A DNA stretch of 56,090 nt, taken from positions 1 through 56,090 of the IMG/VR virus record IMGVR_UViG_3300037191_001062. One strand, given 5' to 3'. A program made the position numbers and the translations under genes. Origin of the DNA: a virus. This document shows, one piece after another, positions 23,527 through 30,455 of this stretch (position 1 is the stretch's first letter; every line of letters starts with the position of its first letter). The notes beneath the pieces were generated by a model. The model had not been told where the DNA came from. It searched no databases and saw only the letters and a program-made list of their open reading frames with translations.

Positions 23527-24558
23527 ATGATTGATTTTGTAGAAATAAAATATGCTCAATTGCTTGCTGGTAGACTTGACAATTATAGAGTAAAATCCCA
23601 CGCACCATATAAGATTAATTTTAGATGTCCTATATGTGGCGACTCTGAAAAAAGCAAGTCTAAGACTCGTGGATGGCTCATAGAAAAGAATAATGGCTTT
23701 TACTTCTATTGTCACAATGGTTGTGGTAGTAGGTCCTTTAATCAATTTCTTAAAAGTCAAGACAATATGTTATTCAACGACTATATTGCCGAAAAGTTCA
23801 TGAGCAAGAATACTTCTAATTCTAAAAAAGAAAAAGAACGCACAATCACTGGCGATATGTTCACTGCACCAAAATTCAATAAAGAAAAACCTGTTGATCC
23901 CTTAAAGAAAATCAAAAAGATAAGCCAATTAGAGTGGAACCATCCTATAAAACGATATATCAATCGTAGAGAGATTCCAACTAACCAGCATTATCGCATG
24001 TATTTTGCTAAGAAATTTCAAGCCTGGATTAACACGATCATACCAGACAAGTTTCCTAATATTAAAAAAGACGAACCTCGTTTAGTCATACCATTTCTTG
24101 ACGAAGATGGTAAAATGTTTGGTTGTTCAGCTCGTGGTTTTGATCCTAACGGAATAAGATATATATCTATAATGTTCGATGAAAGACCTAAAGTATTTGG
24201 ATTAGACACTGTTGATTTTAATCGTGAATACTTCATACTTGAAGGAGCTTTAGATAGTATGTTTATAGAAAACTCCGTTGCCATGGCAGGCGCAGATGGT
24301 AATATTGGGGGTTTTGAAAATATAGAAAATGCAGTATTTGTGTTTGATTCTGAACCGCGCAATAATCAAATACATAAGCTTATGACAAAGATTATAAAAT
24401 CTGGTTATAAGATATGTATATGGCCAGATAATGTTCCTGGTAAAGATATTAACGAAATGTTTTTGAATGGTGTCAAAAGCCCAAGAAAACTGATAAAAGA
24501 AAACACATATTTTGGTTTAACAGCAGAAGCTAAATTTTCGGCGTGGAGAAAGACGTAG
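23527..24558 (+). CDS. 61: DNA primase (gp61-like)
   Basis: A 343-residue primase. The N-terminal zinc-binding site is FRCPICGDSEKSKSK with YCHNGCG (CxxC and CxxxC-type ligands, about residues 36-67). The catalytic part has the TOPRIM elements LEGALDSMFI (acidic Glu), VFVFDSEPRN and PDNVPGKDINEMF. It makes RNA primers for lagging-strand synthesis and joins the gp41 helicase. The end overlaps the GGAG site of the dihydrofolate reductase gene. Confidence 0.9.
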   Translation: MIDFVEIKYAQLLAGRLDNYRVKSHAPYKINFRCPICGDSEKSKSKTRGWLIEKNNGFYFYCHNGCGSRSFNQFLKSQDNMLFNDYIAEKFMSKNTSNSKKEKERTITGDMFTAPKFNKEKPVDPLKKIKKISQLEWNHPIKRYINRREIPTNQHYRMYFAKKFQAWINTIIPDKFPNIKKDEPRLVIPFLDEDGKMFGCSARGFDPNGIRYISIMFDERPKVFGLDTVDFNREYFILEGALDSMFIENSVAMAGADGNIGGFENIENAVFVFDSEPRNNQIHKLMTKIIKSGYKICIWPDNVPGKDINEMFLNGVKSPRKLIKENTYFGLTAEAKFSAWRKT

Positions 24559-26056: not shown

Positions 26057-28318
26057 ATGAGTGTAATTAACGTTACAAAAAGAGCTGGTCAATTAGAACC
26101 ACTTGACTTTGAGAAGATACACAGAGTATTAGAGTGGGCGAGTAACAGTTTAACTGGTATATCAATATCCGAGGTTGAACTACGAGCTAATTTGCAATTA
26201 TACGATGGAATTCCATCAGACGATATTCACGAACTATTAATAAAAAGTTCATCTGAATTAATATCAGAAAGTACTCCAAATTATCAATTCCTAGCTGCAA
26301 GATTAGTTAATTATAAATTGCGCAAAGAAGTATACGGTCAATACGAACCTTGGGCTTTATCGCGAGTAATTGACATTAACGTTGGTCTAGGTGTGTATGA
26401 TGATCAGATATTGGTTAAATACACAAGTGAAGAAATCAATAAATTAGATTCATTTATTCGACATGCGAGAGATGACGAATTTACATATGTTGCAATGGAA
26501 CAAATGCGCGGAAAATATCTTGTCCAGAATCGTAATACTGAAACAATATATGAGACTCCACAAATTTTATATATGATGGTTGCAGCTACATTATTTTCTA
26601 ATTATCCAGAAGATACAAGGATGCGCTATGTTAAAGATTTTTATGACGCAACATCACAATTCTTTTTATCATTACCAACTCCAATTATGGGTGGTGTGCG
26701 CACATCAATTCGTCAGTTTAGTTCTTGTGTATTGATTGAATCTGGTGATAGTCTTGATTCTATTAGTGCAACATCAAGTGCTGTTGTTAAATATATCTCT
26801 AAGAAAGCGGGGATAGGCATTGGAGCTGGTCGTATTAGAGCTTTAGGTTCAAGTATTGGAGATGGTTCAACTGTGCATACAGGGCAAATTCCATTCCTTA
26901 AACTCTTCCAAGCATCAGTTAAAAGTTGCAGTCAAGGAGGTATTCGCGGAGGTGCAGCTACTACTTATCTGCCAATTTGGCATAGAGAATTTGAAGAATT
27001 AGTTGTACTTAAAAACAATAAAGGTACTGATGAAAATCGTGTTCGTAACATGGATTATGCATTCCAGTTTAATAAATTAATGTATGAACGTCTACTTACT
27101 GGTGGCAATATCACTATGTTCTGTCCTAATGATGTTCCTGATTTATATGATGCGTTCTATTCAGACCAAGATTTGTTTGCTGAACTTTATGTTAAGTATG
27201 AAAATGATAAAACTTTAAAAACCAAGACAATGAAAGCAATGGATGTTTTTGTCCAATTCTTATCAGAACGTAAAGATACTGGTCGAATTTATCTGATGAA
27301 CGTAGATCACGCAAATACTCATGGCTCATTTTTACCAGAAGCTGCGCCTATTCGAATGAGTAATTTATGTGCTGAGGTGACATTGCCAACAAAGCCTTTG
27401 GATAACATCAACGATCCAGACGGAGAGATCTCTCTGTGCACATTGGCTGCAATAAATTGGGGTTTGATCAATCACCCCTCAGAGTTTGCAAAGTATAGTG
27501 ATTTGATTGTAAGGGCTCTTGACGAACTATTAGATTATCAAGATTATCCAGTAATAGCTGCTGAAAATTCAACAATGAACAGACGTCCACTTGGCAACGG
27601 CATTATAAATCTTGCTTACTTCCTTGCAAAACGCGGCTTAAAATATAATGCAGAAGCATTACCGGTTATTGATGAATACGCTGAAGCATGGTCTTATTCT
27701 CTCATTAAAGCAAGCGCTGATCTTGCTATTGAAAAGGGTAAGATTCCACTTAACAACGAAACCAAATACGGCCTAGGTATTTTGCCAATTGATACTTATA
27801 AGAAAGATGTTGATGAATTAGTACCGCATATTGAAAGAATGGATTGGTCTAGTTTACGTGAACAACTTAAAGAACATGGTATTCGTAATAGTACTTTAAT
27901 GGCCCTTATGCCAGCTGAAACTTCTGCCCAGATCTCAAATAGTACAAACGGTATTGAACCACCAAGAGCACTCGTAAGTCATAAACAAAGTAAAGACGGT
28001 ATAATGGCTCAAGTAGTTCCAGGATATCATAAGTTAAAGAATAAATATGACTTACTATGGGATCAAGAAAATCCTGAAGGTTATCTTCAAATATGTGCTG
28101 TATTACAAAAGTATATTGACCAAGGTATCTCTGTTAATACTAGTTATAACCCAGAGAAATTTCCAGATGGCAAAGTACCAATGTCTCGCATTATTAAAGA
28201 TGTTATTTCGTTCTACAAATACGGCGGAAAACAATTATATTATAACAACACATTTGATTCGGCTGGTGAAATCGAATCTGAAGACGAAGATTGCGCAGAC
28301 GGCGCTTGTAAAATTTAA
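26057..28318 (+). CDS. nrdA: class Ia ribonucleotide reductase, large subunit
   Basis: A 753-residue NrdA. The N-terminal ATP-cone (VINVTKRAGQLEPLDFEKIH, residues 3-22) suggests activity control by ATP/dATP. The catalytic barrel has FSSCVLIESGDS and NLCAEVTLPT (active-site cysteines) and the TSAQISNST loop. The tail has Cys746 and Cys751 in DCADGACKI, which shuttle electrons from glutaredoxin. It reduces NDPs to dNDPs with NrdB. AAATTGGAGAAAA precedes the start. nrdB follows 9 bases on. Confidence 0.95.
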   Translation: MSVINVTKRAGQLEPLDFEKIHRVLEWASNSLTGISISEVELRANLQLYDGIPSDDIHELLIKSSSELISESTPNYQFLAARLVNYKLRKEVYGQYEPWALSRVIDINVGLGVYDDQILVKYTSEEINKLDSFIRHARDDEFTYVAMEQMRGKYLVQNRNTETIYETPQILYMMVAATLFSNYPEDTRMRYVKDFYDATSQFFLSLPTPIMGGVRTSIRQFSSCVLIESGDSLDSISATSSAVVKYISKKAGIGIGAGRIRALGSSIGDGSTVHTGQIPFLKLFQASVKSCSQGGIRGGAATTYLPIWHREFEELVVLKNNKGTDENRVRNMDYAFQFNKLMYERLLTGGNITMFCPNDVPDLYDAFYSDQDLFAELYVKYENDKTLKTKTMKAMDVFVQFLSERKDTGRIYLMNVDHANTHGSFLPEAAPIRMSNLCAEVTLPTKPLDNINDPDGEISLCTLAAINWGLINHPSEFAKYSDLIVRALDELLDYQDYPVIAAENSTMNRRPLGNGIINLAYFLAKRGLKYNAEALPVIDEYAEAWSYSLIKASADLAIEKGKIPLNNETKYGLGILPIDTYKKDVDELVPHIERMDWSSLREQLKEHGIRNSTLMALMPAETSAQISNSTNGIEPPRALVSHKQSKDGIMAQVVPGYHKLKNKYDLLWDQENPEGYLQICAVLQKYIDQGISVNTSYNPEKFPDGKVPMSRIIKDVISFYKYGGKQLYYNNTFDSAGEIESEDEDCADGACKI

Positions 28319-28327
28319 GGAATAAAA

Positions 28328-29449
28328 ATGTCTGTATTTAAGAAAAGGGCAGGATCGCACCTCTCATCGAATATTTTTTTCGGTGAGAGGGTAGACATCG
28401 CAAGGTATGACGAAGTAAAATATCCAGCGCTAGAAAAATTAACTAATACAATGCTTGGATTTTTTTGGAGACCTGAAGAAGTTAATATCACAAAAGACAA
28501 GTCTGATTTTGTTAATCTTTCTGATAAAGAAAAACATATATTTACTGCAAATTTAAAAAGACAAATATTATTAGATAGTGTACAAGGTAGAGGTCCAACA
28601 GAAACTTTTATACCTATTGCGTCGTTGCCCGAAATAGAACCACTAGTTCAGACTTGGGCATTTATGGAAACTATTCACTCAAGATCTTATACTCATATTA
28701 TAAGAAACATTTATCCTAATCCAAGTGAAGTGTTCGACACGATGTTGGATATTAGCGAGATATTAGATTGTGGCGATAGTATATCAAAATATTACGATGA
28801 TTTTATTGAAGCAAGTAAATGGTGGCAGTTACTAGGTGAAGGTACTCATATCATTAATGGTAAAGAATTTGTAATTGATTTATACGAATTAAAAAAGAAA
28901 TTGTGGTATGCAATCAATTCAATCAACATATTAGAAGGCGTTCGTTTCTATGTTTCGTTTGCTTGTTCTTGGGCATTTGCTGAAAATAAATTAATGGAAG
29001 GCAACGCAAAGATTATTAAACTAATTGCCAGAGATGAGAATACACATTTAGCAGCATCACAGATGATTATAAAAAATCTTGTAAAAGAAGATCCAGATTT
29101 TGCTAAAATATCTGTAGAATGTCACGACTATATTCAATCAATGTTTATACGAGCTGCTGATCAAGAACGAAATTGGGCTTCATACTTATTCAAAGATGGT
29201 TCGATGTTGGGTTTGAGTGAAAACATTTTGGTGCAATATATTGAATGGATTGTAACGAGACGTATGAGATCTTTAGGTTACACGTCTCCTTATCATGTTC
29301 AACAAACAAATCCGTTACCATGGACTGAAAAATATATTGGTGGTGGTAATGTACAAGTAGCACCACAACAGACACAAATATCTAGTTATGTTATCGGTGG
29401 CGTTAATCAAGATATGACAGCAGAAAAGTTACAGGGATTATCTTTATAA
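28328..29449 (+). CDS. nrdB: class Ia ribonucleotide reductase, small subunit
   Basis: A 373-residue NrdB carrying the diiron-tyrosyl radical. Visible: FFWRPEEVN, the iron-ligand helices with ETIHSRSYTHIIRNIYP and LIARDENTHLAASQ, and a C-terminal tail that binds NrdA. A G-U-containing hairpin (about 28360-28392) lies near the 5' end. The stop overlaps the ATG of the GIY-YIG gene (TAATG), and its GLSL ending is imitated 740 bases downstream. Confidence 0.94.
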   Translation: MSVFKKRAGSHLSSNIFFGERVDIARYDEVKYPALEKLTNTMLGFFWRPEEVNITKDKSDFVNLSDKEKHIFTANLKRQILLDSVQGRGPTETFIPIASLPEIEPLVQTWAFMETIHSRSYTHIIRNIYPNPSEVFDTMLDISEILDCGDSISKYYDDFIEASKWWQLLGEGTHIINGKEFVIDLYELKKKLWYAINSINILEGVRFYVSFACSWAFAENKLMEGNAKIIKLIARDENTHLAASQMIIKNLVKEDPDFAKISVECHDYIQSMFIRAADQERNWASYLFKDGSMLGLSENILVQYIEWIVTRRMRSLGYTSPYHVQQTNPLPWTEKYIGGGNVQVAPQQTQISSYVIGGVNQDMTAEKLQGLSL

Positions 29450-30081
29450 TGTACCGAGTTGGTGACTTTAATGATTACATCGATTTTGCAAAAGCAATTG
29501 GATGCAAAAGAATTGAAGAAATATTAATACAACCAGAAGATGGCGCTGAAGTTTTTCAGTGCCATCACAACGCAAGTTCTAATCCAGTACTGGGTTACTA
29601 TTTTGCTACTGATTCTCACGGTATTAAACATGCGTTTAAACATAGTGTATTGGGGCAAGGTGATATATTAGTTGATGTTACTCCAACTCTAGACAATAGA
29701 AAATATAATATATTTGCTTATGGCTGTATTGACATTGGCGAACACATTACATATTTAAATAACGAAGTCTTTATAAATAAAAATAAACAAGAGACTGAAA
29801 TTATTTACTATGTATATGCATTAATTGATCCAATAACTAAAGAACCTTTCTATATTGGAAAGGGTGAAGATGACAGGGCTCTTTCTCATTTTAAAGAAAC
29901 AGCTTTAGAAAAAGAAGGCAATAATAGAAAGACAGCTAAAATTAAAAAACTAAAATCGTTAGGATATGAACCAATGATTGAATTTTACGCACAAAACATT
30001 ATTGATGAAGATCTTGCATATTATATACAAGAAAAAATTGTAGAAAAACACAAATTGCAATTAGAATCCGGTGTGTATTGA
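29449..30081 (+). CDS. papain-like domain fused to GIY-YIG endonuclease
   Basis: A 210-residue two-domain protein inserted between nrdB and the glutaredoxin gene. Residues 1-105: FQCHHNASSNPVLGYYF, KHSVLGQG and LVDVTPT suggest a papain/transglutaminase-like fold with Cys38, His65 and Asp76. Residues 116-210: IIYYVYALIDPITKEPFYIG is the GIY-YIG core, followed by KGEDDRALSH and a Glu-containing QEKIVEKH helix. GIY-YIG enzymes of this kind are often homing endonucleases. The fusion is unusual; the N-terminal assignment is my inference from motif spacing. Confidence 0.78.
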   Translation: MYRVGDFNDYIDFAKAIGCKRIEEILIQPEDGAEVFQCHHNASSNPVLGYYFATDSHGIKHAFKHSVLGQGDILVDVTPTLDNRKYNIFAYGCIDIGEHITYLNNEVFINKNKQETEIIYYVYALIDPITKEPFYIGKGEDDRALSHFKETALEKEGNNRKTAKIKKLKSLGYEPMIEFYAQNIIDEDLAYYIQEKIVEKHKLQLESGVY

Positions 30082-30141
30082 CCAAAAATTACACTAAAGA
30101 AAAATACTTGAAAAGTCACCATATAAAAATAAAGGATTGAA

Positions 30142-30189
30142 ATGAGATTAACAACTAAAAACGAAATTAACAAAGGATTATCACTTTAA
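30142..30189 (+). pseudogene. decoy copy of the nrdB 3' end
   Basis: A 15-codon ORF, MRLTTKNEINKGLSL, with AAAGGATTG upstream. Its last codons and TAATG overlap imitate the true nrdB end (EKLQGLSL then TAATG). It probably keeps translational coupling to the glutaredoxin gene after the GIY-YIG insertion separated them. Confidence 0.6.
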
Positions 30190-30455
30190 TGTATACAGTA
30201 TATAGTAAAGATTACTGCTCACAATGCGTATCAACTAAAGCATACTTAAAGCAAAAAGATATAGCATTCACTGTTGTGAATGTTCCTGGTGATATGGATT
30301 TGGAATTTTTTAAGAGTATGTTTCCAACTGCAAGATCATTCCCTGTTATCGTAGGACAAGATAATAAAGCATATTATGATCACAACACTATTAAGATTGA
30401 AATTGAATCTGATTTTTTTAGCAAGTTTCCAATAAGTGATATTATGGGATTATGA
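30189..30455 (+). CDS. nrdC: glutaredoxin (NrdC-like)
   Basis: An 88-residue thioredoxin-fold protein: MYTVYSKDYCSQCVSTKAYL with the CxxC redox pair (Cys10, Cys13), then RSFPVIVGQ with the cis-proline. It would reduce the NrdA C-terminal disulfide. The start overlaps the upstream mini-ORF stop (TAATG) and its stop overlaps the next start. Confidence 0.9.
   Translation: MYTVYSKDYCSQCVSTKAYLKQKDIAFTVVNVPGDMDLEFFKSMFPTARSFPVIVGQDNKAYYDHNTIKIEIESDFFSKFPISDIMGL

Follow-up and report, generated by a model that had tools for sequence, protein, structure and literature searches.

Between the genes for the ribonucleotide reductase small subunit (nrdB) and glutaredoxin of a virus (IMG/VR record IMGVR_UViG_3300037191_001062, positions 1 to 56,090; the window, meaning the whole 56,090-nt stretch that was analyzed) there is very probably a decayed, free-standing GIY-YIG homing element, which inserts at one fixed site within nrdB (APQ^E) and brings with it 26 codons that replace the 3′ end of that gene. 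The genes run nrdA, nrdB, GIY-YIG open reading frame (ORF), mini-ORF, and glutaredoxin, all on the + strand. A preliminary description of this DNA had noted that nrdB ends in GLSL with TAATG leading into a GIY-YIG gene, and that a 15-codon ORF at 30142-30189 ends in KGLSL with TAATG leading into glutaredoxin. Both observations held up, given the ORF coordinates and the Pfam match of the last gene: nrdB ends in ...EKLQGLSL with a TAA that shares bases with the ATG opening the GIY-YIG ORF at 29449, and the mini-ORF stop joins the glutaredoxin start by TAATG in the same way. The parts of the locus are as follows.

26057..28318, + strand: nrdA, the large subunit, given for context (Pfam PF02867, E 5e-117).
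28328..29449, + strand: nrdB, the class I ribonucleotide reductase small subunit (Pfam PF00268, E 2.5e-49), a hybrid gene whose last 26 codons appear element-derived, on the basis of the 26 codons past the junction in 19/19 element representatives.
29366..29371, + strand: insertion junction CAA^CAG (APQ^Q), with Gln versus Glu (GAA/GAG) in insert-free relatives.
29369..29449, + strand: nrdB replacement tail, 26 codons QTQISSYVIGGVNQDMTAEKLQGLSL plus stop, imported by comparison of L296/L292 and L090/L071 and probably so in the window itself.
29449..30081, + strand: truncated GIY-YIG homing endonuclease ORF, 210 aa (Pfam PF22945, E 1.5e-7; alignment to full-length relatives).
30125..30168, + strand: frameshifted remnant of the endonuclease 3′ end (KNKGLK / RLTTKNEI; profile score 38.0).
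30142..30189, + strand: mini-ORF MRLTTKNEINKGLSL, 15 codons, composed of endonuclease remnant and the last five native nrdB codons.
30172..30189, + strand: displaced native nrdB end (KGLSL plus TAA), with an AAAGGA and a TAATG overlap able to start glutaredoxin (DNA pattern and relatives' junctions).
30189..30455, + strand: glutaredoxin, nrdC-like (Pfam PF00462, E 3.4e-9).

The arrangement without an insert is well represented among relatives. Of the first 80 (window-like) nrdB relatives, 72 have a CxxC (glutaredoxin-like) ORF whose start overlaps the nrdB stop; the remaining eight comprise one with a short gap, three with another ORF, three with none within 30 nt, and one without an nrdB end. 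It follows that nrdB normally abuts glutaredoxin through a ...KGLSL stop/start join, as the preliminary description had predicted for relatives lacking the insert. The nearest insert-free relative of the window, L008 (78% DNA identity), lacks both the nuclease and glutaredoxin behind nrdB, so the window is without an exact empty site. In L008 (5139-5300), nrdB runs directly into a gene similar to the window's next gene after glutaredoxin. Glutaredoxin C termini are themselves sometimes NrdB-tail-like (ISKFKL, RDMTL, and SDIMGL; L089 5137-5433, L090 1871-2152, and window 30189-30455), which makes shared docking on NrdA possible.

The preliminary description had proposed that an endonuclease gene was inserted between nrdB and nrdC with the old nrdB tail kept in front of glutaredoxin. 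The insertion and the retained tail are supported, but the site is not intergenic: it is within nrdB, 26 codons short of the stop, and a complete 26-codon tail follows APQ in all 19 non-redundant carriers (nrdB loci clustered at 95%). In relatives, the last 24 nrdB residues are encoded a second time at the far end of the element. In L091, L118, and L296, this displaced tail starts at the Glu of APQ-ETE, and the nrdB-borne tail starts at the same position with Gln.

This Gln proved to be a mark of the element. When we compared the junction codon across 268 nrdB 3′ ends, all 50 carrier loci had Gln (48 CAA, 2 CAG), whereas the 208 insert-free loci comprised 194 with Glu, one with a stop (L050), and 13 that fell outside the search pattern and were Glu by eye. 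Clustering gave the same division: 19/19 carriers had Gln and none of the 127 insert-free clusters did (124 Glu, 1 Glu-and-stop, and 2 unmatched but Glu by eye). Two further clusters at contig ends had Glu, and among four with other GIY-YIG genes, two had Glu and two were unmatched (Glu by eye). The window nrdB bears the Gln mark, as CAG. The L050 stop, a TAA at the exact junction codon of an insert-free gene, may be either an error or a resistant allele.

We also scanned IMG/VR blindly with the DNA of VAPQQTQI as the query, making no use of the nuclease. The scan returned 79 stretches, 76 of them in nrdB and 3 in unrelated genes. In 75 of the 76 marked nrdB genes, sequence similar to this nuclease family lies within 1.6 kb, and the other contig ends after 41 bases; 40 of these 75 loci are on contigs new to the analysis. 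A one-codon mark thus predicts the element in 75/76 marked nrdB genes. Three marked loci (L437, L466, and L469) match the nuclease only beyond its N-terminal domain, and five (L404, L426, L428, L458, and L459) have an N-terminal-like domain 665 to 695 bases behind nrdB, after another ORF. The N-terminal-like stretch of L404 and similar loci comes after an open GIY-YIG-like frame.

The 19 carrier clusters share an identical site, and empty sisters are available in L292, L071/L069, L254, and L172. The clearest comparison is between L296, which has the insert, and L292, which is empty. Their nrdB genes are mostly 98 to 100% identical up to ∼100 nt before the stop, apart from one diverged patch near the 5′ end, and the sequences downstream of the insert are 95 to 100% identical. 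Against the L292 tail, the nrdB-borne tail of L296 matches at 54/75 nt and the tail behind the insert at 72/75. Judged by these identities, the pair shows that nrdB of L296 carries a foreign tail and that the native tail sits behind the insert. The roles assigned in the preliminary description, which took the nrdB end as true and the downstream copy as a decoy, are therefore reversed: the working tail is imported and the decoy is the native remnant in L296, and probably in the window as well.

A second pair, L090 (insert) and L071 (empty), also has near flanks that are 98 to 100% identical, up to ∼120 bases before the stop. Here the nrdB-borne tail matches at 57/75, and the native tail behind the insert is down to its last 27 nt, all identical. 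In both pairs, a divergent tail thus lies within otherwise nearly identical near flanks, as co-conversion would leave it, and a replacement 3′ end has been brought in with the native 3′ end kept downstream. The other two comparisons, between less similar loci, do not settle the question. For L118 and L254 (the empty locus being 95.5% identical to the carrier in nrdB), the displaced tail matches at 65/75 and the one left in nrdB at 62/75; for L104 and L172 (86% identical in nrdB), the values are 63/75 and 71/75, opposite to expectation. The native tail is therefore closer than the imported one clearly in L296, in truncated form in L090, and slightly in L118, and the relation is reversed in L104. 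Although this displaced tail is not part of the nuclease ORF, 24/24 of its residues match the nrdB tail. Because the base differences are all silent even there, the two copies most likely acquired them as separate nrdB tails, before coming together.

The fixed site, the replacement tail, the mark, the displaced tail, and recent transfer between near-identical genomes can all be read from the sequences compared. We favor homing as their explanation because insertion is site specific, conversion extends over short flanks, one site is shared, and the mark changes that site. We infer that the endonuclease would cut insert-free nrdB alleles at a presumed position near CAA^GAA. Repair from an element-bearing genome would then copy in the replacement tail, the endonuclease gene, and a short flanking stretch. 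The nrdB gene would stay intact, now with an imported tail, and the native tail would end up behind the endonuclease, or fused to it, where the gene that follows would still draw on it for a ribosome-binding region and start overlap. Carrier alleles are marked, and probably protected from cleavage, by the G-to-C change (Glu to Gln) that the imported tail brings. GIY-YIG enzymes such as I-BmoI discriminate single bases near the insertion site.

The copy in the window has decayed. Its nuclease ends at codon 210 with the second half gone; what is left is the N-terminal domain (residues ∼1 to 115) and the GIY-YIG core (∼117 to 205), and the NUMOD3 and C-terminal DNA-binding part are lost, so the protein is presumably inactive. 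Read with one frameshift, the DNA between this nuclease and KGLSL encodes KNKGLK/RLTTKNEI, which resembles the nuclease C terminus GKNKGLKIRYATxxEI. Against a profile of the last 23 conserved nuclease residues, the remnant scored 38.0, and 1 of 1,188 other window tiles scored as high; this best control tile, at 23622, lies within a 343-codon ORF (23527-24558) other than the nuclease ORF. A cruder, frameshift-aware profile of 90 C-terminal columns gave no significant match over 30079-30186, with 14/150 shuffles and 15/147 other segments as good. A second decayed example, L103, has a 205-codon nuclease and an orphan tail, KYAKQTENTFVNFTL, that matches the 23-residue profile weakly (score 19). 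By these alignments, most of the mini-ORF is not nrdB but a remnant of the nuclease gene, and native nrdB contributes its final five codons alone.

The codons that were kept hold the normal nrdB-glutaredoxin start region, and so their loss would probably cost glutaredoxin expression. In short-tailed carriers (the window, L107, L272, L089, L119, and L090), AAAGGA stands 8 to 14 bases before the next start, with the stop overlapping that start, an arrangement that fits coupled downstream translation. L101 and L117, in which the tail has been lost, have their own purine-rich stretches before the next gene.

We considered how specific the doubled nrdB end is, since two gene ends might resemble each other by chance. 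Short GLSL-like ends are indeed common near nrdB: by a loose tail-suffix test, a look-alike occurs somewhere downstream in 25/152 insert-free loci, and is thus not rare alone. We therefore dropped this test as a criterion and used a position-specific one. Counting only look-alikes joined by a stop/start overlap to an ORF of at least 60 aa behind them, we found them in 0/152 insert-free loci versus 19/58 loci with a GIY-YIG gene behind nrdB, a count that includes the window twice (as the window and as L170) and several contigs more than once. The 19-base junction pattern GGATTATCNNTNTAATGTA has exactly two occurrences in the window, one at each junction (29435 and 30175), where shuffles expect 0.12, although it was derived from the very two places that it finds. 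Relatives with full tail copies at the same place exist, and none of the 152 insert-free loci, each with at least 2 kb downstream, has a full nrdB tail copy. Coincidence has next to no probability on this evidence. The preliminary description had held that insert-free relatives should not carry the mini-ORF apart from nrdB, and a tail copy abutting a gene was seen in 0/152 insert-free loci. The same absence weighs against the mini-ORF being a functional small gene, such as a glutaredoxin leader peptide or a free NrdB-tail peptide docking on NrdA. The C terminus of the class I small subunit is a docking peptide for the large subunit, and the mini-ORF has its own start with AAAGGA upstream, but its upstream codons align to the nuclease C terminus and the decayed L103 has a different orphan tail; we regard this role as very unlikely.

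Two further explanations concern how the element came to lie where it does. The nuclease gene might have landed between nrdB and glutaredoxin, with the nrdB end then duplicated locally to keep translation coupled. The window taken alone is compatible with this history, as the kept codons hold AAAGGA and the stop/start overlap, and the nrdB tail of L104 is nearer to its (distant) empty sister than the rear copy is. Against this history, the working tail is foreign in L296 and L090 (54/75 and 57/75 to the empty sisters), with the rear tail native in L296 (72/75). The element is moreover perfectly linked to a Gln mark 26 codons inside nrdB, and the displaced tail retains nrdB's Glu start (ETE) in L118, L296, and L091, making this account quite improbable. 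Alternatively, the insert could be a self-splicing intron (or intein) whose removal joins APQ to the rear tail, the front tail being read-through. Insertion is precise and within a conserved gene, exact removal would restore the native frame in L296-type loci, and nrdB of phage T4 has a group I intron, according to the available text of PMC2988022. No catalytic RNA core was detected, however: 10 sources, the window among them, gave no match to any Rfam RNA family. All 19/19 representatives have A or G immediately before the insertion, and group I introns need a U at that position. The imported tail also completes nrdB in 19/19, the insert consists almost entirely of coding sequence, and the rear tail forms a fusion with the nuclease ORF in six lineages and is reduced to five codons in the window. 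We rejected splicing, which is extremely unlikely, on the lack of Rfam matches and the A or G preceding the insertion.

As a probable homing element, the insert belongs to a family whose GIY-YIG nucleases, with a characteristic N-terminal domain, adjoin nrdB directly in IMG/VR phages. Intact members mostly have 370 to 391 codons (L104 has 459 and L102 has 406, both with different C-terminal parts) and consist of the N-terminal domain, GIY-YIG core, NUMOD3, and a C-terminal part. PF22945, a LEM-3-like GIY-YIG core, was above the cutoff in the window protein and four full-length relatives; NUMOD3 was above it in 4/4 full-length relatives and absent from the window's truncated protein. The core fold matched the restriction nuclease PD-T4-3 (E 6.4e-4) and, weakly, the I-TevI catalytic domain (TM 0.67 by target, E 0.33). 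The N-terminal domain of ∼113 to 115 residues had no convincing Pfam, PHROG, or NCBIfam match, and a confident predicted model (pLDDT 94) found no solved structure at E 0.001 in a fold search. Across 18 sequences, this domain (L089 4001-4339; window 29449-29793) has invariant C38, H39, Y51, A62, H65, D76, P79, and D82. None of the 80 relatives kept of 126 from cellular genomes has it (query match starting at residue 97 or later), and in named phages (32 and 25 records) similarity begins only from residue 89 on among the matches listed.

A recognizable second nrdB tail occurs in 21 of the 268 nrdB loci, in each of which a GIY-YIG gene follows nrdB. The displaced copy is full for 11 of 41 distinct marked tails, and for 21/41 a simple test found none; the latter include the contigs of L101, L117, and L115, which nevertheless have near full-length nucleases. 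The displaced tail lies just past the nuclease stop or otherwise out of frame in L104, L118, L124, L296, L402, and L405, and it is fused in frame to the nuclease in six lineages (L091, L095, L100, L395, L427, and partly L412). The L091 endonuclease, for instance, ends in EISSYVIGGVKNDISDDTFKGFNL, compared to QISSYVIGGVKNDISDDTFKGFNL at the end of L091 nrdB. Intact nucleases ending in frame with a displaced 24-residue NrdB tail could in principle bind NrdA and sit on, or be tuned by, the reductase, which we consider improbable. If so, the end of an essential protein would become part of a selfish gene, and each homing event would rewrite the NrdB docking tail.

Two observations stand beside this family. 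GIY-YIG genes without the N-terminal domain lie behind nrdB in L122 (from 3940), L466, and L469, and farther downstream the nrdB end recurs in shorter form (e.g., VKKDTFSGFKL); perhaps these genes represent a second family using the same trick. In L405, a KGMSL-like remnant stands ahead of the next gene and another full copy of the tail lies farther downstream, and the 90%-identical L454 is without the full copy. This looks like repeated insertion rounds or rearrangement, and a reading of the two loci as stepwise tail loss was dropped when they proved rearranged.

Replacement of a tail by homing offers an explanation for decoy-like duplicates of gene ends. A further consequence is that a selfish gene exchanges the NrdB tail among phages, a point of importance where ribonucleotide reductase genes serve as phage markers, and near-identical insert/empty pairs are now at hand for direct homing tests. 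Among known nucleases, the element is like those with a LEM-3-like core and NUMOD3 (PF22945, PF07460; phrog_5356, phrog_314) in its core and NUMOD3 matches, and its N-terminal domain sets it apart from them. As the available portions of PMC2988022 describe them, the seg and mob genes of T4-like phages share with it a GIY-YIG nuclease (seg) or a position beside a ribonucleotide reductase gene (mobE), a stop/start overlap with the upstream gene, and spread by cutting alleles that lack them (intronless homing). Those genes are, however, intergenic, with a cut site hundreds to thousands of bases off, whereas the present element inserts within its target gene and replaces the tail; the same portions mention no duplicate of the target's end. 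MobE in nrdA of Aeromonas phage Aeh1 is likewise a homing endonuclease within a phage reductase gene that stays functional (PMC2988022 and PMC3653736, in the portions available), but Aeh1 nrdA is split into two working pieces, whereas the present element repairs the gene with its own 3′ end.

We found no phage homing gene that replaces the 3′ end of its target in the literature searched, a body of partial texts that included PMC10448857 besides the papers cited here, with most subscription journals outside it. The closest counterparts are the mobile endonuclease ORFs (mORFs) of fungal mitochondria, described in the accessible part of PMC3630166 for atp6 in Allomyces and for atp6, atp9, cox2, and nad3 in Glomus. 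In these, too, a free-standing endonuclease lies near the 3′ end of an essential gene, supplies a replacement C terminus, and leaves the native C terminus downstream as a divergent duplicate; the ORF is sometimes in phase, and the Glomus atp9 case is GIY-YIG. Unlike the fungal mORFs as that part presents them, the phage element has a phage host and an nrdB target, one endonuclease family with its own N-terminal domain, one fixed site, and a Glu-to-Gln mark in every carrier examined, and its displaced tail apparently provides the start region for the gene that follows. As far as these accounts extend, the element thus brings to phages an invasion route that we found described only for fungal mitochondria: insertion inside an essential gene, repaired with the invader's own 3′ end.
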